Origin: Agmasoma carcini (nom. nud.) | Taxonomy: Eukaryota; Microsporidia; Thelohaniidae | DNA: 64,000 bases | Direction: 5' to 3' | Assembly (NCBI GenBank): GCA_029232285.1 | Contig: JAOXFI010000047.1 | Coordinates: 1-64,000, forward strand | Shown: positions 3-63,787 of the stretch, in pieces | Numbering within the stretch: position 1 is the stretch's first letter | Layout of the letters: the number at the start of each line of letters is the position of its first letter | Made by a program: the position numbers and the translations under genes | The notes under the pieces: generated by a model | Told to the model about the DNA's origin: nothing | Databases searched by the model: none | Seen by the model: the letters and a program-made list of their open reading frames with translations, nothing else

Positions 3-2276
3 GAAAATAATTTTAAAATAGAACATCAAAATGTTTCTATTCTTCCTCAACATGCAATAATCACAGAGGAATCACATCCAGCTGTTATCCCTATGAGAAG
101 ATTTAAGAAGGAGGTATGTGATAAAATCGAAAATAAAATACAAGAATATATTAGGGAAGGAATTATAAGGAGTTCTGATTCACCTTGGAGGGCGCAGGTA
201 GTTCCAGTGGAAAAGGAAGGGAAGCCATTTAGGCTGTGTATTGATTATAGAAATTTGAATAAGGTCACTAAGCGTGACGCGTATCCATTACCAAACATGG
301 ATGAAATATTCAATTACGTAGGGCAAGCAAAGGTATTTTCAAGGTTAGATGCAAAATCAGGCTATCATCAGTTGCTAGTAAAGGAAGAAGATAGGGAAAA
401 GACAGCATTTGCAACAATGAGTGGCTCTTATGAATTTATAAAAATGCCATTTGGACTTGTAAATGCTCCAGCAACGTTACAAAGAGCAATGAATGAGCTA
501 CTTAAGGAAGATTTATACAAATTTGTTATAGCATATTTAGATGATATAATTATATTCTCAAATAATGAACAACAACATAAAAAACATCTGAATATAATAT
601 TAGGAATTTTTAAAAAAGCAAATTTAGTATTGAATGAATCAAAATGTTGCTATTTTATGAAAGAGATAAAATTATTAGGACATTATGTTGCTCATGGTAT
701 TCTTAAACCGGATCCAGAACGTATTGAAGCAATAAATAAAATAAGAATGCCTAGTAACAGAAATGAATTGCAAAGTACATTGGGGCTTTTAGGATATTGT
801 AAAAAATTTATAAAAAATTTTTATATAAGGGCAGTGTCTTTATTCAAGCTTTTAAGAAAAAGCTACGAGGCTGATTATGTTAAAATGGAACTAGAAAAGG
901 AGGATAATAAGATTTTATTTAAAGAAATTATTGCGGATTTAAAAGATCAAACATTAATTAACATTCCAAATAACAAAGATAGGTATATATTAACTACTGA
1001 CGCTAGCAAAAATGGTTGTGGTGCAGCTTTAATTCAAATTCAACAAGGTGAAGAGAAAATCATATCATTTTATTCATTCATGTTCAATAATGTACAAGAA
1101 AGATATAACACTACAGAACAAGAGTTATTAGGTGTAATTAAAGCGGTAAATCATTTTAAACATTACATTCTAGATGTGAAATTTACAATTAGAACGGATC
1201 ATAAGGCACTAGTATATCTTATTAAGAATATGTCAAGTAAATTGAGATTGCAAAGATGGGTTTTAGAGCTTCAAGAGTATAATTTTGATATTGAACATGT
1301 TAAAGGTAAGTATAATTTTGTTGATATTTTTAGCAGATGCTTTAATATTAAAACACTAACTAAGCAAGATAATCGCATTAAACCAGATATCAAGGATGAG
1401 TATAATATTATATTACAACATCATATCCACACTGGTCATGGTGGATTAGATGCGACAAAGTACAGTGTTTTAAAAAGGTATAACATACCAAATGGTAATA
1501 AGAAAATCAATGAATTTATTAAAAAATGTGACATCTGTATACGAGAGTCAAGTAGCCAAAAGACTAATAAAATAAAACCAATTATGGTTAGTGATATCAA
1601 TGAAATGTGGGAAGCGGATATGATTGGGCCACTTCCAATTACAAAAGGTGGTAACAAATTTATTTTGACTATAATTGATTGCTTCAGCAAAAGGGGTTTT
1701 GCAAAAGAGATGGTTGAAAAGAGCGCAGTATTAGTCAAAAATGAATTTGAACATTTAATTAATAAGTGGGGAACACCAAAGAAAATTTTGACGGATAATG
1801 GTTTAGAATTTAAGAATAAGTTTATTCAGGAATTTTGTGATAAGAACATGATCAAATTAAAGTTTTCAAGTCCATATACTCCAACAACCACAGGTTGTGT
1901 TGAAAGGTTTAATCAAACATTGATTAGGAAAGTTAAAAAACTTGGGAAATTTAGTGATTTAAATTGGGACAAATTTTTGAAAATAGGGGTGATGGCGTAT
2001 AATAATTCAGTTTCAAGATCGACACGGTTTACACCAAATGAAATATGGGATATTGAATCGTATCCAAATATTGATAAAAAATATTTTGCAAGTAATGAAA
2101 TTAGTACAAAAATTGACAATGATGTAATCAGGAAGAATTTATTTAAATATTATGCAAGCTATGCAAAACTTACAAGGACAGATGAATTTGAAGTTAATGA
2201 GATAATTTTGTATTCAGAACTGGGTGTACGAAAATCAAAACTCAGCGTAAAATATAGTAGGTTAGCAAAAAAATGA
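3..2276 (+). CDS. pol: Ty3/gypsy Pol polyprotein (RT, RNase H, integrase), 5' partial
   Basis: The frame is open from the left edge. The ATG at 93 is internal, because the conserved segment that precedes RT is already coded upstream of it. Visible domains are the RT with the catalytic YLDD box (about 531-550), RNase H with TTDAS, a TEQELL helix and RTDHKAL, and integrase with an HxxxH/CxxC zinc-binding start (about 1425-1540). The integrase catalytic acidic residues sit in WEADMIGPL, LTDNGLEF and CVERFNQ. The protein copies element RNA into DNA and inserts it into the host genome. The frame stops at 2274-2276 just after a 7-A run, and about 30 further plausible residues follow in the +1 frame, ending at 2358. 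The copy therefore carries either a single-base indel or a programmed shift. Confidence 0.93.
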   Translation, partial: ENNFKIEHQNVSILPQHAIITEESHPAVIPMRRFKKEVCDKIENKIQEYIREGIIRSSDSPWRAQVVPVEKEGKPFRLCIDYRNLNKVTKRDAYPLPNMDEIFNYVGQAKVFSRLDAKSGYHQLLVKEEDREKTAFATMSGSYEFIKMPFGLVNAPATLQRAMNELLKEDLYKFVIAYLDDIIIFSNNEQQHKKHLNIILGIFKKANLVLNESKCCYFMKEIKLLGHYVAHGILKPDPERIEAINKIRMPSNRNELQSTLGLLGYCKKFIKNFYIRAVSLFKLLRKSYEADYVKMELEKEDNKILFKEIIADLKDQTLINIPNNKDRYILTTDASKNGCGAALIQIQQGEEKIISFYSFMFNNVQERYNTTEQELLGVIKAVNHFKHYILDVKFTIRTDHKALVYLIKNMSSKLRLQRWVLELQEYNFDIEHVKGKYNFVDIFSRCFNIKTLTKQDNRIKPDIKDEYNIILQHHIHTGHGGLDATKYSVLKRYNIPNGNKKINEFIKKCDICIRESSSQKTNKIKPIMVSDINEMWEADMIGPLPITKGGNKFILTIIDCFSKRGFAKEMVEKSAVLVKNEFEHLINKWGTPKKILTDNGLEFKNKFIQEFCDKNMIKLKFSSPYTPTTTGCVERFNQTLIRKVKKLGKFSDLNWDKFLKIGVMAYNNSVSRSTRFTPNEIWDIESYPNIDKKYFASNEISTKIDNDVIRKNLFKYYASYAKLTRTDEFEVNEIILYSELGVRKSKLSVKYSRLAKK

Positions 2277-14681: not shown

Positions 14682-16445
14682 ATGTCATTTCTTAAGAAGT
14701 CCATAAAAGATCCAAATATACTTGGAATTGATCTTGGAACAACAAATTCTGTAGTTTCTATTATGAAAGACAAATATCCAATAATTTTGAAAAATGAGAA
14801 TGGCAATCCAACCACACCGTCCATCATAAATATAACCAATAAGGAAATAGTAGGTGAAGCTGCAAAGAATTTACTTGATAAGGATAGCAATAACACGCTA
14901 TTCGCAACAAAGAGGTTGATAGGAAGAAAGTTTAAGGAATTAGACCTACTGAACTACACAAAGACTTTACCATACAAAACTTACGAGCACTGCAATGGTG
15001 ATGTTTGGATTAAAACAGATTTTAGAAAGATTTCACCAGCAGCCGTTGGTGCTAAAATTCTAGATAAAATGAAAAAAATTGGAGAGAAATATCTTGGAAC
15101 TAAAGTAACCCGTGCTGTAGTGACAGTACCTGCCTATTTCAATGACTGTCAACGACAAGCAACAAAGGATGCAGGTAAAATTGCAGGCTTAGATGTTTTA
15201 CGTGTGATAAACGAGCCAACTGCAGCAGCACTCGCGTACGGTATCGATAAGAAAGAGCAAGGAAATATAGCGGTATATGATCTTGGTGGTGGCACATTTG
15301 ATGTTACTATTTTAGAGTTAGATAAAGACGTTTTTCACGTAAAATCTACGAACGGTCATACCTTTTTAGGTGGAGAAGATTTTGATAATGAATTTGTTAA
15401 TTTTTTGGTTAGAATGTATGAAAGTGAAGAGGGTTGTGACGTATCTAAACACCCAATGGCAATGAAGAAACTGAAAATAGCAGCAGAAAAGGCTAAAATA
15501 GAACTATCGAACAAGAGGCAAGTAAAAATTCAGATTGATGATATAATTGATGGGAAATCTTTTGATTTGGATGTGACAAGGGAGCAACTTGAGAATGTTG
15601 TTAAAAGGGTGGCTAATAAGACGATAGAACCCTGCGAATTAGCTTTGAAGGATGCTAAATTAAAGAAGAAGGATATTAAACATGTTATCTTGGTTGGGGG
15701 TATGACTAAGATGCCGCTTATCAGAAAATTAGTAGAAAATATTTTTGGTCAAAAGCCTTATACGAATATTGATCCTGATGAGGCTGTGGCTAAGGGTGCA
15801 GCAATACAAGGAGGTATTATTTCTGGTTCACTTAATAATTTACTGTTATTGGATGTGTGTCCATTGAGCCTAGGTATTGAAATCTTAGGAGGTTTATATA
15901 GTAAAATTGTTAATAGAAACACGACCATACCATTTAGAGAGACACAAAGGTTTTCTACTTCTGAAAATGACCAAGAAGAGGTAGATATTAATATTTATCA
16001 GGGTGAACGTGCATTGGTTAAAGATAATATGCTTCTTGGTAAGATCAAGCTTACAAATATTCCTAAAGCTAAAAAGGGCGTGCCAAAGATCGATGTAACA
16101 TTTGAAGCGGACTCTAACGGTATTATTCATGTAAATGCACAAGATGGAATAACGAAAGAGATGAGAAGTATTGAAATTGTCCCTTCAAGTGGCTTTACAG
16201 AAGACGAAATTAAAAAATTGATCAAAGAGGCAGAAAGCAGTCAAGTAGAAGATGAGAAGAAGAAGGAATGTGTAGAGTTCAGATTAGGAAACAAAGATTT
16301 GGTATCAAAACTGATCAACGATACCAAAAAAAAGAACAAATCAAATTTTAAAAAATTGATAAAGTTAGAAAATGACTTAAAAAAGGATGTTTTTGATATA
16401 AAAGAGGCGGAAAGGATAATCAACACGGTTGTTAGGGCCGAATGA
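14682..16445 (+). CDS. SSC1: Mitosomal Hsp70 (mtHsp70, DnaK-like)
   Basis: A chaperone of the relict mitochondrion, used for protein import and Fe-S cluster transfer. GIDLGTTNS (residues 15-23), a VYDLGGGTFDV phosphate loop, INEPTAAALAYG and LVGGMTKMP mark the ATPase domain. The substrate-binding domain has the mitochondrial/bacterial-type ERALVKDNMLLGK box rather than the cytosolic one. The C-terminus is short and has no EEVD, again against a cytosolic form. Only about ten residues precede the ATPase core, so any targeting presequence is minimal. At 587 residues it is shorter than typical mtHsp70 (about 650). Confidence 0.95.
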   Translation: MSFLKKSIKDPNILGIDLGTTNSVVSIMKDKYPIILKNENGNPTTPSIINITNKEIVGEAAKNLLDKDSNNTLFATKRLIGRKFKELDLLNYTKTLPYKTYEHCNGDVWIKTDFRKISPAAVGAKILDKMKKIGEKYLGTKVTRAVVTVPAYFNDCQRQATKDAGKIAGLDVLRVINEPTAAALAYGIDKKEQGNIAVYDLGGGTFDVTILELDKDVFHVKSTNGHTFLGGEDFDNEFVNFLVRMYESEEGCDVSKHPMAMKKLKIAAEKAKIELSNKRQVKIQIDDIIDGKSFDLDVTREQLENVVKRVANKTIEPCELALKDAKLKKKDIKHVILVGGMTKMPLIRKLVENIFGQKPYTNIDPDEAVAKGAAIQGGIISGSLNNLLLLDVCPLSLGIEILGGLYSKIVNRNTTIPFRETQRFSTSENDQEEVDINIYQGERALVKDNMLLGKIKLTNIPKAKKGVPKIDVTFEADSNGIIHVNAQDGITKEMRSIEIVPSSGFTEDEIKKLIKEAESSQVEDEKKKECVEFRLGNKDLVSKLINDTKKKNKSNFKKLIKLENDLKKDVFDIKEAERIINTVVRAE

Positions 16446-25558: not shown

Positions 25559-26677
25559 TTATTTTCTTTTATAAATCAATTCACTGTAAAGACAACACGC
25601 GGCTACACCCAAACACATGATTGACAAAACCATATACTTATTCATCTTTACATGTTCTCCACCAAGAAAATATAAAGATGGTAAAATAAACGCAATGGTT
25701 GTTGACAGCGTACCACCTACAAAAGTAGCAATCTGAGTAAAATTGAAGGTAATCAAACAAATAAAAGCATACATGAACACGAACAGTGATAAAACTATAT
25801 ACTTTCTATTATTTGGGTTGATATTCAACATTATCTGCATAGAAATAACCACAGGGTATATTTGAAGTACAAAACTACCTAAAATGATAAAAACGTAAAA
25901 CCACAGTACAACTGTTTTAAAAGTATCAGATGGCCAGTCATTAAGCACATTTGGACTGATATTTGGTAGTCTAGAATAATTTAAATAACCAAAAAATAGA
26001 TAAATACATGTAACTAGCACATAAACAAGACCTATCTGCGTAATAAAATAACTATATGAGCTACCAGACTCATTTTGAACAGTTAAGACTGTGTGATGGC
26101 ATGTATAACCAACCACAAACTTTCCAATATTGGATATCAAATTACTGTCAGTAGGCTCGGTAATTGGTATTAATAAAGATGGAGAAAGTGAAAATGCGTA
26201 AGAAATAAGAGCAAAGGCACCCATGACGCCAAAGAATGAAAATATTTTGATGGATGTTAACCTTTCACTCACAGCCAAAGGAAAGATCAAAATTAGTATA
26301 ATTAAAGGGACAAGATGTGGAACTATAAATCCTTTTAGAGCAGGGATCAGAGAATAAGACTGTGATTCAACGAGAATTAAGTAAGAGATTGAAACAAGAG
26401 TGCACTTTGTTATGACAATCACATCAACTATTTTGTCTAGATTTGTCCAAACATGTCTTGAAAGGGATGAAAGGGTTTCATCTTTGCTGTACTTACTATT
26501 CAGCCATGCGTAAAGAACACATCCTGAGAATGATACGAAAGCCATCAATCCTGTGTATAAAATGGTGAGAGTTGTTCCATATTGCTTGAAAAGAAACGGA
26601 TAGAATAACATGCCAGATCCTATACATGATTTTAGCATGTTAATAAGTGTTGATATCTCATTTTGTTCACCATACAT
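25559..26677 (-). CDS. Amino acid transporter, AAAP family
   Basis: A 372-residue protein with about eleven membrane segments, compatible with the auxin/amino-acid permease (AVT/SLC36/SLC38-like) fold. The N-terminal helix holds LINMLKSCIGSGMLFYPF, the family's NxxxxxxGxGxLxxP substrate motif. It probably imports host amino acids or moves them across an internal membrane; the substrate is unknown. A diverged paralogue lies at 33282-34397 with the same length and order. The start ATG is preceded by an A/T run and GCC. Confidence 0.88.
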   Translation of the reverse strand: MYGEQNEISTLINMLKSCIGSGMLFYPFLFKQYGTTLTILYTGLMAFVSFSGCVLYAWLNSKYSKDETLSSLSRHVWTNLDKIVDVIVITKCTLVSISYLILVESQSYSLIPALKGFIVPHLVPLIILILIFPLAVSERLTSIKIFSFFGVMGAFALISYAFSLSPSLLIPITEPTDSNLISNIGKFVVGYTCHHTVLTVQNESGSSYSYFITQIGLVYVLVTCIYLFFGYLNYSRLPNISPNVLNDWPSDTFKTVVLWFYVFIILGSFVLQIYPVVISMQIMLNINPNNRKYIVLSLFVFMYAFICLITFNFTQIATFVGGTLSTTIAFILPSLYFLGGEHVKMNKYMVLSIMCLGVAACCLYSELIYKRK

Positions 26678-33281: not shown

Positions 33282-34397
33282 TTATTTGTAAAATAACTGA
33301 CTTCCAACACACGAAATAGCCATTATTAAGCAGATAATTGACATTAAATAGAATTTCTTCTTTTTCTTATCCTCTCCTAAAATATAATACAATGATGGAA
33401 ACACCAAAGAAATAAGAGGAGAAAAGAATGATCCTATCAATTCAATAACCTTAGTAAAGTCTACCAGTGTAACTAAAGAGAGCGCATACATAGAAATATG
33501 CAATAAAGCAACCAATCTATTTCTCTTCCCTTCAGCAATATGAAATATTTTTGATATCATGTTGATTATAGGAAGCATCTGGAGAGGGAACCCTGTAAAA
33601 ATAACAATACCATAAAAATATAATGCTACATTACGTGCTAATGTATTTGGCCATCTAATTATTATTGCTTCTTTATCAATATCAATAAATTTTACAAAAT
33701 TGATGTATCCAAATGATAAGTATAAGCATGTAATCACAAAGAATGAAAATAAAACCTGCTTGCAGAAGTAAGAATAACTGCTAGGGCTCTCATTATGTAT
33801 AAAAATGATCGAATGTTGGCAGGAAAACCCATAAACGAATATTCCAATATTCTTTATAGGATTAAAACTTTGAATCTTTGATTCTTTAATACCACTCGAT
33901 TCAAGCGTTACTGAAAAGATCAAAAGCACAAGAACACCCAATATCCCTAAGCAGGAAAATAATTTAAAAGAAGATATTTTCTTTATACAAGAGATTGGAT
34001 ATAGAATTGAAAGCATTAGACCGATAGAGAATTTAGGAATATTTTGAAATTTAGTAAGAAGGTCTAATTCTATAAAAAGGTCACTAAGAAGTAATAGGAA
34101 GGTCCATGCAACGAAATAACACTTCAAGATAACTACTATATCGACTATTACCTTTAGACGGGTGCATACATGATTTGTGATGCCACTTAAGCTCAGTCCT
34201 TTGCCATATTTCGAATTGAAGTGACAATATAGACAGCATCCAAAAAATGAAGATATGCTAGCAGAAGATGCGAGTAGAATTGTCAATATTGGGCCATGAA
34301 TTTGAAAAAGATAAGGATAAAGCAAAATAGTACAGCCTACACAAGATTTGAGGGTGTTGAATATTGTAGCAAATTCATTTTCTCTTGAATTTATCAT
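33282..34397 (-). CDS. Amino acid transporter, AAAP family (paralogue)
   Basis: A 371-residue multi-pass protein with the same layout as the 25559-26677 protein. Both open with a (T/N)xLKSC(I/V)G block, have a SPSSYSYF/SGSSYSYF segment mid-chain preceded by a conserved NES, and end with a helix before a short basic tail. The helix 1 motif reads LKSCVGCTILLYPYLF, with Cys-Thr replacing the Ser-Gly of the other copy, so substrate range may differ. It is an old duplication rather than a recent one. Confidence 0.85.
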   Translation of the reverse strand: MINSRENEFATIFNTLKSCVGCTILLYPYLFQIHGPILTILLASSASISSFFGCCLYCHFNSKYGKGLSLSGITNHVCTRLKVIVDIVVILKCYFVAWTFLLLLSDLFIELDLLTKFQNIPKFSIGLMLSILYPISCIKKISSFKLFSCLGILGVLVLLIFSVTLESSGIKESKIQSFNPIKNIGIFVYGFSCQHSIIFIHNESPSSYSYFCKQVLFSFFVITCLYLSFGYINFVKFIDIDKEAIIIRWPNTLARNVALYFYGIVIFTGFPLQMLPIINMISKIFHIAEGKRNRLVALLHISMYALSLVTLVDFTKVIELIGSFFSPLISLVFPSLYYILGEDKKKKKFYLMSIICLIMAISCVGSQLFYK

Positions 34398-36938: not shown

Positions 36939-38543
36939 TTACGACTTTATTTTATCAAGTTTTGCAAACAATTCTCGTCTTTCTTTGCTTTGGGGGTGAA
37001 TATTTCTTACAACAGCCCTCATCTCTTCTGGTGAAATAATATTAAGATTAGTCTTAAATAACCTCTCAAGCTCATCAAATGATGATTTAAGAGCATTAGT
37101 AAGCAATACCAACTTTTCATAATTACCTATACCCTCAGAGTCATACCCATATGATAAATCTAACAAATAATTAGATATATCATACAATTTATCAACCTTA
37201 TCACCATCAAACTTAGAAGGTACAACAATAAAATCAATATATCTAGAGAATAAGGACTCAAAAAACTTACCAAGAAATAAATCAAGGGATGTTACATCAA
37301 TAAAAAGGTCAATATTTTCAAGAAATTCATAGTGAAGCTGTTTGATATGTGCCTTTATAAACATAACATCATCATTTAAATTAATATTTAAGTTTGTAGA
37401 AGCCTTTATAAGTTTGGTAAAAAGAGCATTTCTACTATCAGATAAGCTATCATAGTCAGAACAATCTTTATTCGTCCTTATATAGGTTGATAGATCTGCA
37501 TATTTAACAAATAAATCATAAGGAATTGATAATTGATCGTAGCTAAAGAATTTGATCAAGCTGCTTCTAAATATTTTTAATGCTTCAGCCTTTTTTTCAG
37601 ATTTTATTGGGTGCAAAAGTTTTTTAGCCTTAATTAAAAGATCAAAATTCTTACTTATATGCTTTTTTTCAACTCTTATGACCTCACCAGACTCTTTTAC
37701 CTTAGAAATATCAACAACACTGTTCATTATAATATTGAGAGCCCATCGATCAACGTTATTTATATAAAAATCAGTTTTAGTGAAAAAATGATTATTTTCT
37801 CTTAAAGTTTCCATAGAATATTCATTTTTGATAAACAAAGTCCCCATATTTATTTTTAGACCATGTAAGATTGAATTTGTGGTTATAGGGGTGGCTTTTA
37901 AAATATCACTCAGGGTAGAAACATTTAACTTTTCAGTGATGATATTGCTGGTATCTGTACTTGTGGAAGGTTGAACCAAATAAAAGTGATTTTCACCAGT
38001 GAAAACTTCAGTCTCTGTAGCAATATCAAGCAGACGCTTACCAACTATGTATTTAAATTCATTGATTAAACCTGTATATGTAGATTTTTCTTTTATAAAA
38101 CTAAGAAATTTTTCAATGTCGTTGTGAATCCTTAGAATGTTAAAATATTCTCCTTTTAGTTCTAAATTAGCTACTTTTAATACTTCTGAGCTTTTCTGGA
38201 CGAAAAACAAAACGAGAGACCTTAAAAATACCTTTGATTTCTCAATCAGAACATTATCATCATCTACAGTCTCATACAATCTATATAAATCATCCAAACA
38301 TAAGCAAGAACCAGAAACAACTTCTTTATATTCAATTTCTCTACATATTTGACTATACTCTGCTTCTAATTCATCAATTCGCTTTTTTAGGGTAAGCCTA
38401 TCTAAGCTGTTTTTTTCTCTCTTTAAGTCAGATATTTCAGTAGACAAGCTATTTATTAAGCTCTTGTTGTTATAATATTTCAAAGATAGCTCAGTTAAGT
38501 CCTTTAACTTACCACATAGTTCATTTATACGCTCTGCTGACAT
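36939..38543 (-). CDS. Tethering-complex-like protein (ZW10/Dsl1-type, tentative)
   Basis: A 534-residue, mostly helical protein. The first 75 residues are a coiled coil, the body has long helices, and the last segment ISPEEMRAVVRNIHPQSKER resembles the C-terminal xSxxEVxxLIxALFQxTxRR block of ZW10. ZW10/Dsl1/RINT1 proteins tether Golgi-derived vesicles at the ER. Overall identity is low, so another helical-rod (CATCHR) tether such as an exocyst or COG subunit remains possible. The start ATG follows an A/T run and AACC. Confidence 0.4.
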   Translation of the reverse strand: MSAERINELCGKLKDLTELSLKYYNNKSLINSLSTEISDLKREKNSLDRLTLKKRIDELEAEYSQICREIEYKEVVSGSCLCLDDLYRLYETVDDDNVLIEKSKVFLRSLVLFFVQKSSEVLKVANLELKGEYFNILRIHNDIEKFLSFIKEKSTYTGLINEFKYIVGKRLLDIATETEVFTGENHFYLVQPSTSTDTSNIITEKLNVSTLSDILKATPITTNSILHGLKINMGTLFIKNEYSMETLRENNHFFTKTDFYINNVDRWALNIIMNSVVDISKVKESGEVIRVEKKHISKNFDLLIKAKKLLHPIKSEKKAEALKIFRSSLIKFFSYDQLSIPYDLFVKYADLSTYIRTNKDCSDYDSLSDSRNALFTKLIKASTNLNINLNDDVMFIKAHIKQLHYEFLENIDLFIDVTSLDLFLGKFFESLFSRYIDFIVVPSKFDGDKVDKLYDISNYLLDLSYGYDSEGIGNYEKLVLLTNALKSSFDELERLFKTNLNIISPEEMRAVVRNIHPQSKERRELFAKLDKIKS

Positions 38544-38804
38544 TTTGGTTAAAAATTTTTAGGTCAAAACATTTGAATAAAAATACACAAAGTTTATCAA
38601 AATAATATTCTATAACTGCTATATATAACTAATGGTTAAGTCTAATGATGAATTGTAAATACAACTATTGCATATATTCAGCATCTAAGACATAGATTAA
38701 GCAGTAATATAAAAGATCAATAAAATAATAACGGTAAAACCAAGAACTCCTGAAATAAATTAATTCAGCTTCTTAAACAAATATAAATTAAAAAAATTAA
38801 TATA

Positions 38805-38962
38805 AAAGTTGGGTGCAGAGAGTAAGCCTCATCATGTTGGGTAGATCGATACCTAACAGCATTGAACTATTTTTAGGAGAAACATTCCAATTATGGGTGC
38901 CTTTCAGCTATTTCCGAGGACTTTCCTTAGAGCGTGCTCCAATGCTGTTCTTCTGCCCAAGC
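38805..38962 (-). ncRNA. RNase MRP (or RNase P) RNA candidate
   Basis: Minus strand, about 155 nt. CR-I is CTAAGGAAAGTCCTC (38916-38930) and CR-V is AACATGATGAGGCTTAC (38822-38838). They pair as P4, AAG-U-CCTC with GAGGCTT, leaving the expected bulged U. P1 joins TTGGGCAGA (38952-38960) to TCTGCACCCAA (38809-38819). P2 is a perfect 10-bp AACAGCATTG/CAATGCTGTT helix (38940-38949 with 38855-38864). A small hairpin (38840-38853) sits where P19 belongs. TTTT follows P1 as a Pol III stop. The small size and a GAAAG (GARAR-like) loop favour MRP. No long P3 is seen. Confidence 0.8.
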
Positions 38963-39004
38963 AAATTTTTTTTAAAAAAATTAAAATATTTTATTATTTT
39001 TTAT

Positions 39005-39775
39005 TTACAATACTAAGTACATAGACAGCAGCGATTCCATTGCACTGGATAATACCTTTGGACTGCTATTCAGTTTAGAGTTCCTTCCTGATGTAAGACC
39101 ACTTGAACTTTGTTGAACGATCTCACCTGGTTTATATCCGTCTAGGCAATCTGATAATGTTACGAATTCATAATTTTTATCTTTAATCACATTTATAATC
39201 TCCTCTAAGTTATCATCTTCAACTAATCGTTGTTCATATAAAGAAATTATAAACGAATCTTGATGGTAATATGAAGGAGACAAGAATTCTTCAATACTCT
39301 CAACTGGGTCTACATCTGGCTGGTCGTGAGGACAGAAACTATAGGCTGTTTGTACTATTCCATTCTCTTTAAAGAAGTCATATACTACCTCCACAGGCAT
39401 GCTTTCATCAAGAGGCGAACGAGCGAATCTTATAGGCATACCTATTTTATCTTCTAAATACTTAATTTGATTATCCAAATCGTCTGCCACCATTGAACCA
39501 TCATCCTCCTCATTGTAATTTCTTTTAGGGCTTGTCCTGAATCCAATATCATGATTGTATTGACTTGAAGCAGCAAACGTTCTGCTAACTGTAGGGCCTC
39601 TTACATTGGTGTTAAAGTGAAATGTTGCTGGTATATCTTTTTCTTCTAGAAGTTGCATTAGTGATTCTGTATCTGAGGTTGGTCCTTCATCGATGGTTAA
39701 AGCTACCACCCCAGACCTTAGACATGTTTCTGGAAGATTATAAGATTGCGCTAAAACGAATTGGAATAATAACAT
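39005..39775 (-). CDS. Chitin deacetylase-like protein, degenerate catalytic site
   Basis: A polysaccharide deacetylase (NodB, CE4) fold protein of 256 residues with an N-terminal signal peptide. Motif 1 reads TIDEGP instead of TFDDGP (residues 27-32). Motif 2 keeps YNHD but has Ser71 where the first metal-binding His should be. The RPPY-type motif 3 is RFARSP. Such changes suggest little or no enzyme activity, as reported for the Encephalitozoon cuniculi homologue, which sits at the plasma membrane under the spore wall. The C-terminus is Ser-rich with a final hydrophobic stretch, possibly a GPI signal. The ATG at 39775 follows TTTGCCC directly. Confidence 0.8.
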   Translation of the reverse strand: MLLFQFVLAQSYNLPETCLRSGVVALTIDEGPTSDTESLMQLLEEKDIPATFHFNTNVRGPTVSRTFAASSQYNHDIGFRTSPKRNYNEEDDGSMVADDLDNQIKYLEDKIGMPIRFARSPLDESMPVEVVYDFFKENGIVQTAYSFCPHDQPDVDPVESIEEFLSPSYYHQDSFIISLYEQRLVEDDNLEEIINVIKDKNYEFVTLSDCLDGYKPGEIVQQSSSGLTSGRNSKLNSSPKVLSSAMESLLSMYLVL

Positions 39776-39880
39776 GGGCAAATTTGTATTTCTACTTTAA
39801 TAATACAAAATTTATATTAAAAAAACAATAAAATATTTTTTTTTGATGGTTTTTTTAATTTCTAATTTATTAAAATAGCT

Positions 39881-49429: not shown

Positions 49430-50593
49430 ATGACTTACAGAAATAACCAAAAATTGATAAAACATATTTCTATGGGCTTAGCAGCCGAGAAGCTAAAAAT
49501 ATCGTTAAAAGACTTTACAAAGCTTACAGTACTACTCTCTGTATATCCTATAATAGCTGAAGATAAAAAAACATGCTATGGTAGAAAATTAGCCAAAGAT
49601 TTCCACTACAAAGTTACCGACATTCAAAATATTTACGATTCTGAAGAATATGATAAGCTAAGAATAAACAAAGCCCTACAAAAGAAGAGAGAAGCCCTAA
49701 AATTCTATAAACAAGAAGTCAAAGCTTCCAATATTAAAGATAAGAAATATAAATATATTTCTCTTATAAAAAATAAGTACAAATCATTCGGTGATTGCTT
49801 AAATGATTTAGGTAACTCTATAAAGGATATATACTTGGTTAGCGCACTTAAAATTGATGAGGTGGACGAATGTATTGAAAATTTTGAAAAATTTGTTTAT
49901 GAAAACAAATTATTGGAGTATGCTTTTCTTTCAAAGAAAGGAATTTATTTTTCAATGAAATTTGAAAAGATACGCGTGTTCTGGCTAAAGCCATATCCTG
50001 GTTACAACCTAGAAGATTTTGTTGTAGAGAAGAAAGAAGTAATTAAGAAGGTTAAATATAAGTTAGACTTCTTAGAATGGTTGGATGATGATGAATCAGA
50101 TGAAGAAGTTGTGAATGAAGATAGCAAGCTTGACATATCAATATTGAAATATAGTTCTCCTATACTACAGGCTCATTTATCAACATCCCTACATAAGCTA
50201 AATCAACTTTATCCGAATGGGTTTGATATGAAAGGCACAATATTTGATGGACTTAAATGTTTTGTAGATATTAAGACTATAAAAAAGGAAATTGAATTTG
50301 TATTGAAAAACGAGAATGCGAATATTGTTACATGCGAAGAAGCTAGTGTTGTCTTTACTGAGACAGTTATTGATAAGAGGGAGGGTGTAGAGTATGTACA
50401 TCCTCAATATGTATTTGATTCTCTTAATAAAGGTGAGTTATTAGATAAGGCGCTTTATTATGTTGGTAAAACGATTCCTGAACATCTATCACCTTTCCCA
50501 GATGTAATGGATGTAGCTAAATGTCCTGAATTTGGTATGTTATCAAGTACGAAGAAATATAGAATTTTGGATAAAGTTCAGAAGTTAAATTAA
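49430..50593 (+). CDS. NOP7: Pescadillo/Nop7, 60S ribosome assembly factor
   Basis: Part of the PeBoW complex (with Erb1 and Ytm1) needed for 27S pre-rRNA processing. The N-terminal half carries the pescadillo domain: ISLKDFTKLTVLLSVYP, YISLIKNKYKSFGDCLNDLG and LSKKGIYFSMKF. A single BRCT domain follows (about residues 260-345) with FDGLKCFVD, VVFTETVIDKR and VHPQYVFDSLNKG. At 387 residues it lacks the long acidic tail of the human protein (588). The start at 49430 follows AAATTCCCAA. Confidence 0.95.
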   Translation: MTYRNNQKLIKHISMGLAAEKLKISLKDFTKLTVLLSVYPIIAEDKKTCYGRKLAKDFHYKVTDIQNIYDSEEYDKLRINKALQKKREALKFYKQEVKASNIKDKKYKYISLIKNKYKSFGDCLNDLGNSIKDIYLVSALKIDEVDECIENFEKFVYENKLLEYAFLSKKGIYFSMKFEKIRVFWLKPYPGYNLEDFVVEKKEVIKKVKYKLDFLEWLDDDESDEEVVNEDSKLDISILKYSSPILQAHLSTSLHKLNQLYPNGFDMKGTIFDGLKCFVDIKTIKKEIEFVLKNENANIVTCEEASVVFTETVIDKREGVEYVHPQYVFDSLNKGELLDKALYYVGKTIPEHLSPFPDVMDVAKCPEFGMLSSTKKYRILDKVQKLN

Positions 50594-61968: not shown

Positions 61969-62458
61969 TTGGATAAATTTTTATTTATTTATTTAAATAT
62001 AAACTAAATAGATATAAAAGTATGATATCGATCTAATAAGCGATTTTATCTGTATTTATTAGATTTACCAAATAAAGACCATTGGGTTGTGATTCTATAA
62101 CAAATTATTGTTATTTTTATATATATATAAAGTTTTATTATCAATTTTTAAGATCATAATGAAAAAGATTAAAATTCACCATTATTACTCGATTTTAGTT
62201 ATAAAACGTGTAGATTTGTATTAAATCAGTGCCTTAAGTACAATATCTCTAATTTCATCTTAAATTAAAATATAAATATTATATTTACTATAACAAGGTA
62301 TATTCCCCTTATTTGGTATTTATAAGTTCTATATTGGGCTATAAATCTACTGATACATGTATTTGAAAATATATTTGTAATTTATTGAATTTTTAAAGAA
62401 ATTTATCTTAAGAAATATTAAATTTGGAACAAAAAAAAATTTGAAAAATTTTTTCAAG
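61969..62458. other. Intergenic stretch between divergent genes
   Basis: About 490 bp shared by the starts of CDC27 and UTP15. A/T-rich, with no other feature. Confidence 0.4.
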
Positions 62459-63787
62459 ATGAACATTCAAAGTAATTGTTATAAACTTGATACTTTGAAT
62501 GAAATCCCTTATACACAAATACACGACTGTGAAATACCAATTTCAAATGTAAATTCACAGGAGAAGATTGTATTCACGTCTTCAACCAATGCCTACGTCA
62601 TTAGAAACAATGGAGAGTCAAAGAAAATAGGCTTTCTTAGACATAACATAACATCGTTGGACTATTTTGATAATTTGGTGGCTATAGGATCACAGAATGG
62701 TGAAATAAAGATATTTACTGATGAAGGAATCCCTCTTTGTACATATTTTGAACACACTGCGACTGTTACCAATATAAAGTTTATAGATTCTCTAAATGTG
62801 GTATCTTGTAGTGATGATATGACATTGAAATTCTTTAAATTATCTGAAGATGAGTCATATCATACTTTAGAGGTTGATAGCTTGGTTAAGTGCCTTGCAT
62901 CTCGGGAAAATCGGCTATTGCTGGGAGGTGAAAAGCTACTTGTATATTCAATTGAAACATTTGAAAAGGAGTTTGAATATTTACCTGAGAAGTGTATTAA
63001 GCATAGCGTCTGGCTCGATGACAACAGGGTAGTCTATACATATGACAATGTCATTAATTTATTGGATATAACCAACCCAATTTCACATCTATCACGTTTG
63101 GTTCATTTTAAAGTTATCAACGGTATTTTTATTGATCCTAAGTTTATCTATACCTACTCGAATGATTGCCATTTAAAAGCACATTCACATTCTCTGTTGT
63201 CCGTTTTGGACTATAAATTGGAAGCTCCAATCGTTGGATTCATAAATAATAATGATAAACCTGTTGTTGGCCTATTAAATGGAAAGATTTTGGGGTATAA
63301 ACGCGTTAGCACTAGAAAAGCGTCAAAGAAGGTAAAATTACCGAATAGAAATGAATATGAAGAGATCATAGACTATCAGAATATTTCACAGAGTATCTAT
63401 AAACTATCGACGATAGAGAAGATGCTTCAAAGCTATAAATATAGGAAATGTTTCTTATATGTGCTTGAAAGGGAGAATGTTCATGAAATTTATGGTGTTT
63501 TAAAGTATATTGAAGATAATCAAAGTATTAAAAATATTTTAAAATCACATGATTTGGATGTGGTTAACAATATATTGGACATATGCATTGAATATTTTGG
63601 TATATTTGAGTTTAATCCCATAATTGTTAGTATTCTTGATCAAATGATATTCCTTTATATGGACATGTTTGACGAGAATGAGCCTCTGATTGATAAGTTA
63701 GTGTGTCTAAGTCATAAAATAGATGAAGAAATTGAATATCAGAGCATTCTTATACGAACGATTTCATTTCTTGAGTGTTTTTATTAA
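62459..63787 (+). CDS. UTP15: Utp15, WD-repeat protein of the SSU processome
   Basis: A t-UTP/UTP-A subunit linking rDNA transcription to 18S processing. The N-terminal two-thirds is a WD40 propeller (for example LVAIGSQNGEIKIF, VVSCSDDMTLKFF). The C-terminal helical domain, beginning near residue 325 (EKMLQSYKYRKCFLYVLER, VHEIYGVLKYIED), matches the UTP15 C-terminal domain's LKxFxYxxALDxxL pattern. I chose the ATG at 62459; the frame's upstream TTG is not credible. At 442 residues it is shorter than yeast (513). Confidence 0.82.
   Translation: MNIQSNCYKLDTLNEIPYTQIHDCEIPISNVNSQEKIVFTSSTNAYVIRNNGESKKIGFLRHNITSLDYFDNLVAIGSQNGEIKIFTDEGIPLCTYFEHTATVTNIKFIDSLNVVSCSDDMTLKFFKLSEDESYHTLEVDSLVKCLASRENRLLLGGEKLLVYSIETFEKEFEYLPEKCIKHSVWLDDNRVVYTYDNVINLLDITNPISHLSRLVHFKVINGIFIDPKFIYTYSNDCHLKAHSHSLLSVLDYKLEAPIVGFINNNDKPVVGLLNGKILGYKRVSTRKASKKVKLPNRNEYEEIIDYQNISQSIYKLSTIEKMLQSYKYRKCFLYVLERENVHEIYGVLKYIEDNQSIKNILKSHDLDVVNNILDICIEYFGIFEFNPIIVSILDQMIFLYMDMFDENEPLIDKLVCLSHKIDEEIEYQSILIRTISFLECFY

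Follow-up and report, generated by a model that had tools for sequence, protein, structure and literature searches.

A probable RNase MRP RNA gene of about 155 nt in the genome of the microsporidian Agmasoma carcini

RNase MRP helps make ribosomes, and is essential in well-studied eukaryotes. The question raised by the locus described here is whether some 155 nucleotides within a 64,000-nucleotide stretch of DNA from Agmasoma carcini (the whole of which is called the window in what follows) are the gene for the RNA of this enzyme, a gene for the related RNA of RNase P, or nothing of the kind. The initial annotation, made from the letters alone, proposed an RNase MRP-like RNA of about this length, with its strand left unstated. 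The finding is confirmed; the RNA lies on the minus strand, and is recognized by the Rfam model for RNase MRP RNA from end to end.

38808-38962, minus strand: gene for RNase MRP RNA, some 155 nt long, matching RF00030 over model positions 1-266 of 266

Here, an Rfam scan of 601 bases run with an E-value threshold gives 44.6 bits (E 1.8e-11) for positions 38962-38808, and a rescan of 211 bases returns the same RNA with an E of 6.4e-12. When the whole assembly (4,263,419 bases in 69 contigs) is searched with RF00030 at E <= 0.001, the locus is the sole match, with an E of 3.1e-11 and 10 of 10 candidates scored. Among 14 control genomes, RF00030 matches one, Thermotoga maritima, below the cut-off. 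The covariance-model check proposed in the initial annotation is highly significant, but the score lies 5.4 bits under the curated Rfam cut-off of 50 bits. Because of this, a default Rfam scan of the window misses the RNA, reporting one 5S rRNA and three tRNAs. An E-value scan across the entire window also fails to return it, presumably a result of stricter speed filters.

The gene sits between two minus-strand ORFs: 39005-39781 encodes a polysaccharide deacetylase, and 36939-38543, of 534 aa, has no Pfam match. The RNA has a G+C content of 45%, whereas the intergenic DNA flanking it has 21% on one side and 0% on the other. A reading frame was said to cover the RNA, and a 67-aa plus-strand ORF (38813-39016) does overlap it. 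Matches near the locus to SAM-SAH, mir-7360, HTH-XRE, and SNORD34 were rejected as weak and far below cut-off. The SNORD34 match (38637-38694, plus strand; 19.3 bits, E 0.66) includes AUGAUGA, similar to a C box, as well as a closing stem; no CUGA D box was seen, and it is possibly nothing.

The structure of the RNA was drawn onto the Rfam alignment, with helices picked for their pairing. Its elements are these.

38952-38960, minus strand: 5' strand of P1, nine pairs with 38809-38819
38809-38819, minus strand: 3' strand of P1, carrying a CA bulge
38944-38949, minus strand: 5' strand of P2, 6 bp with 38860-38855, extendable to 10 bp (38949-38940)
38855-38860, minus strand: 3' strand of P2, which in Rfam is 6 bp
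38927-38942, minus strand: P3 reduced to a single hairpin of 6 bp (loop of 4 nt), no P3b
38916-38923, minus strand: CR-I, the 5' strand of P4, with a bulged U and seven Watson-Crick pairs with 38830-38824
38913-38915, minus strand: possible P5, GGA directly 3' of P4, with UCC at 38878-38876; weak
38899-38908, minus strand: P8 hairpin with GAAAG (GARAR motif, 38905-38901) and a stem of 2-3 bp
38861-38868, minus strand: CR-IV, AGUUCAAU, 8 nt given a 6-bp P2
38840-38853, minus strand: eP19-like hairpin of 4 bp (loop of 6 nt), between P2' and CR-V
38824-38830, minus strand: CR-V, the 3' strand of P4, pairing with CR-I
38804-38807, minus strand: TTTT, possibly a Pol III terminator, one base past P1

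Nearly all of what had been claimed for the fold is found: a P4 helix formed from CR-I and CR-V with its bulged U, a closing P1 (UUGGG/CCCAA plus CAGA/UCUG, with the CA bulge on the 3' side), a P19-like hairpin between P2' and CR-V, and an oligo-T run after the RNA. The assigned pairs are all standard, 31 nested and seven in P4 for a total of 38; because the helices were selected for their pairing, these counts describe the structure and do not test it. The "perfect 10-bp P2" fares less well. The pairing exists, but the Rfam P2 has 6 bp, and the four extra pairs would take up parts of CR-IV and the foot of P3. A 3-bp P5 immediately after CR-I is described for MRP RNA in the text of PMC13184271; the GGA/UCC candidate here, likewise of 3 bp, was assigned by eye and is within chance.

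The initial annotation had advised looking for the partner RNA elsewhere in the genome, and a clear RNase P RNA sits in another part of the assembly.

C67:5377-5581 (L002:1501-1705), minus strand: nuclear RNase P RNA, matching RF00009 with 76.5 bits

The cut-off for RF00009 is 28 bits, and a search of the assembly with this model at E <= 0.001 (15 of 50 candidates scored) lists only this place. Its P1 extends into a long perfect helix (CCAAUUAUCAG/CUGAUAAUUGG), and its free-fold z-score is -3.45. It shares with the RNA in the window the order of the C-domain, a P3 hairpin that can be drawn equally small, and a nearly identical CR-IV/P2' block. It differs in having a P-type S-domain, in being longer (a match of 205 nt), and in the letters of its CR-I and CR-V. 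When the two C-domains are aligned in halves, identical columns number 27 of 44 in the first half and 43 of 66 in the second. None of 1000 letter shuffles reaches the similarity score of either half, but the margin is narrow for the first, where the real sequence scores 6.0 and the best shuffle 5.5.

Since a separate RNase P RNA is present in the assembly, MRP is strongly favored over P for the locus in the window. The letters point the same way. CR-I (GGAAAGUCC) and CR-V (GGCUUA) match the MRP consensus, and GARAR, whose letters are intact like those of CR-I and CR-V, is given as a mark of MRP in the texts of PMC1796607 and PMC13184271. MRP had originally been preferred for a short insert and a GAAAG loop; the GAAAG is found in P8. 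The GARAR loop, the MRP-type letters in CR-I and CR-V, and the tiny S-domain therefore identify an MRP RNA.

It might be argued that the locus encodes instead another RNase P RNA, shortened and acting on pre-tRNAs. Its CR-IV, AGUUCAAU, is nearer to the P consensus (AGUgCAAU) and to the CR-IV of the organism's own RNase P RNA (AGUCGAAU) than to the MRP consensus (AGUUAu). Further, a clan relative also matches the locus in the 601- and 211-base scans. That match has the lower score, however, and RF00030 wins the clan competition as the better family, while the RF00009 search of the assembly, with its 15 of 50 candidates scored, does not list the locus at E <= 0.001. The S-domain is too short to hold the part with CR-II and CR-III, P8 carries GAAAG, CR-I and CR-V follow the MRP consensus, and the assembly already has one clear RNase P RNA. 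A second RNase P RNA is, given these facts, very unlikely.

A different objection is that the locus is a decayed pseudogene, or a sequence that the model matches by chance. The score is, of course, below the curated cut-off. Further, structure taken alone says little. The free-fold z-score of the RNA is an unremarkable -0.80, and 39 of 200 shuffles fold just as well. P4, P3, and P8 are absent from its free minimum-energy fold. A loose descriptor for P1, P2, and P4 is found at two places in the window (one of them the MRP RNA); among 20 Markov sequences as long as the window it gives 18 hits. Thus, the element order claimed for the RNase P/MRP family is there in its named elements, but helix order alone is not rare and is not significant against chance, and evidence from structure only was set aside. 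The case rests on the joint sequence-structure score of the model, on the letters of the motifs, and on similarity to the organism's own RNase P RNA. Against decay or chance stand an E of 3.1e-11 for a single match in an assembly otherwise devoid of RF00030 matches, assigned pairs that are standard without exception, and the intact letters of CR-I, CR-V, and GARAR. We regard this objection as scarcely credible.

The preferred reading, to which we give a probability of about 0.93, is that positions 38962-38808 are a single-copy microsporidian RNase MRP RNA gene, transcribed leftward and lacking P3b, whose product acts with proteins of the Pop1, Pop4, Pop5, Rpp1, and Rpr2 families on precursor rRNA.

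One feature of this MRP RNA is odd. The text of PMC13184271 describes CR-IV as 6 nt in MRP and 8 nt in P, stringently preserved, and proposes that these lengths match a flexible pre-rRNA and a rigid pre-tRNA, respectively; no word beginning "microsporid" occurs in its main text. Here, the length, assigned by eye, depends on the choice of P2: 8 nt with a P2 of 6 bp, 6 nt with 8 bp, and 4 nt with 10 bp. The 8-bp P2 that delivers a 6-nt CR-IV puts a C at the position of a conserved A. The 10-bp P2 is better by 2.9 kcal/mol in a nested model (-24.3 vs -21.4), but would use up half of CR-IV and cut P3 to 3 bp. The Rfam alignment places two inserted bases at CR-IV, with low posterior probability, and the text of PMC1796607 allows 0-3 nt between the CR-IV motif and P2'. 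The MRP RNA and the organism's own RNase P RNA have the block AAAAAUAGU-NN-AAUGC in common. These observations raise the possibility, which we consider doubtful, that the CR-IV of the MRP RNA is of the 8-nt RNase P type, that the 6-versus-8-nt rule fails here, and that the two enzymes form a minimal pair without P3b and the Pop6/Pop7 clamp. Were a P-like CR-IV truly present in an MRP RNA, it would test the hypothesis of anchor-substrate matching put forward in PMC13184271.

The initial annotation saw no large P3 domain, and there is none, but P3 is not absent, as a 6-bp hairpin can be drawn. In both RNAs P3 can be drawn, by eye, as a single hairpin without a second helix: UUGGAG-CACG-CUCUAA in the MRP RNA and AGGAG-UGAAU-CUCUU in the RNase P RNA. 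Neither hairpin appears in the free minimum-energy fold of its RNA. In the MRP RNA, the P3 insert of Rfam, 33 positions, is replaced by 2 nt. The text of PMC1796607 reports P3b and P6 as absent from microsporidian MRP RNAs. As this loss is already published, a one-hairpin P3 is a known reduction.

The proteins offer a second view of P3. Of the eight protein families sought in the assembly, five are above cut-off: Pop1, p29 (Pop4/Rpp29), Pop5, p30 (Rpp1/Rpp30), and Rpr2. The p29 match is marginal (27.6 bits, with a cut-off of 27). A rescan of the subunit ORFs puts the same five families above cut-off. A sequence search against the PDB, covering the Pop5, Rpr2, and Pop1 ORFs, finds P/MRP subunits weakly, with best E values of 0.00027, 0.032, and 0.093, respectively. 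The Pop1 ORF has 367 aa, and 19 homologs, of which the one assigned to an organism is from the microsporidian Ordospora colligata, have 377-527 aa. In contrast, the counterpart chains in P/MRP structures from yeast and human have 875 and 1024 aa. The remaining three families, Alba and Rpp20, whose proteins would bind P3, and the MRP-specific Rmp1 (PF20945), were not found in the assembly. Microsporidian proteins diverge fast, and no eukaryote is among the matching controls (none was seen for Rmp1 either); for these reasons, the three negatives are weak. In yeast, according to the text of PMC7351766, Pop6 and Pop7 bind the P3 regions and help engage Pop1. With P3b lost from both the MRP and the P RNA and no Alba pair found, the shortened Pop1 probably therefore binds without a Pop6/Pop7 clamp.

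How, then, might this gene work? RNA polymerase III would transcribe it leftward, ending at the TTTT. The RNA would keep a catalytic C-domain (P1, P2, a mini-P3, the P4 pseudoknot, CR-IV, and CR-V) together with a very small S-domain bearing the P8/GARAR loop typical of MRP. Going by homology, its protein partners would be Pop1, Pop4, Pop5, Rpp1, and the Rpr2-family protein, whose genes are present in the assembly, and the resulting enzyme would cleave precursor rRNA. P3b being gone from the MRP and P RNAs alike, the shortened Pop1 would, on this scheme, be held with no help from Pop6/Pop7. A possible upstream element may be part of the first step.

38964-38979, minus strand: TTTTTTAAAAAAAATT, fitting a 16-nt pattern just upstream of the MRP RNA; A+T-rich, very near the start, and weak

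The pattern, TTTTTWWAAAAAAATT, is common to the MRP RNA and U6 genes, just upstream of each, and was not seen in the 52 bases examined at the RNase P gene. In the window it occurs at two places: at the MRP gene, where the hits on the two strands overlap, and a short way downstream of the tRNA-Ile. By comparison, 20 Markov sequences searched on one strand contain it once. Because its distance from the start is too small for a classical TATA box, it is a hint only.

Relatives that might provide covariation were sought by pattern. Scans of viral contigs gave no matches, and the scan of genome contigs gave two, both in Clostridia-type records and neither microsporidian. These have no Rfam hit at the gathering threshold (a threshold that the MRP RNA itself fails), and E-value scans around them returned no hits up to an E of 1. 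They were taken as chance.

The rest of the window and assembly adds some context. The assembly contains a U6 snRNA, indicating a eukaryote, and the Pop1 homolog from Ordospora makes a microsporidian very likely. 5S rRNA, U6, and tRNAs occur in the assembly, yet a search of its 4.26 Mb with the microsporidian SSU rRNA model gave no match (5 of 64 candidates scored; the model matches 9 of 14 controls), and the SSU rRNA may be unassembled. Within the window are two genes of ribosome biogenesis, Pescadillo and Utp15 (49430-50593 and 62441-63787, plus strand), and an Hsp70 (14682-16445, plus strand) that, among the best 60 of 115 PDB matches, is closest to a mitochondrial Stress-70 and is probably the mitosomal chaperone. 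At 93-2276 (plus strand), a 727-aa ORF holds the reverse transcriptase, RNase H, and integrase domains of an LTR-type retroelement. Two Aa_trans amino acid transporters (25559-26677 and 33282-34397, minus strand) lie about 7 kb apart.

What follows from this? A previously missed gene for RNase MRP RNA is supplied, and the default Rfam cut-off is seen to be able to hide an MRP RNA this small. Further, a genome whose P and MRP RNAs both lack P3b, and where no Alba pair is detectable, offers a natural test of what Pop6 and Pop7 are for.

The RNA belongs to a known type. For microsporidia, MRP RNAs that lack P3b and P6 are already published in the text of PMC1796607, and the text of PMC3228867 describes those of Encephalitozoon cuniculi and Nosema locustae as the shortest known. 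With the microsporidian MRP RNAs of PMC1796607, the RNA in the window shares the absence of P3b and P6. Compared with RF00030, it covers the model from first to last position and has CR-I, CR-V, the P8 loop, P1, P2, and eP19; it differs in having 155 nt against 266 model positions, in its two extra nucleotides before P2', and in the near disappearance of the inserts for the P3 domain and the S-domain. The MRP RNA of Giardia is likewise short, and in the account of PMC3228867 both the P and MRP RNAs of that organism have a short P3 with no internal loop; yet it comes from an unrelated lineage, and its coordinates in Assemblage A, as given there, correspond to 189 nt.
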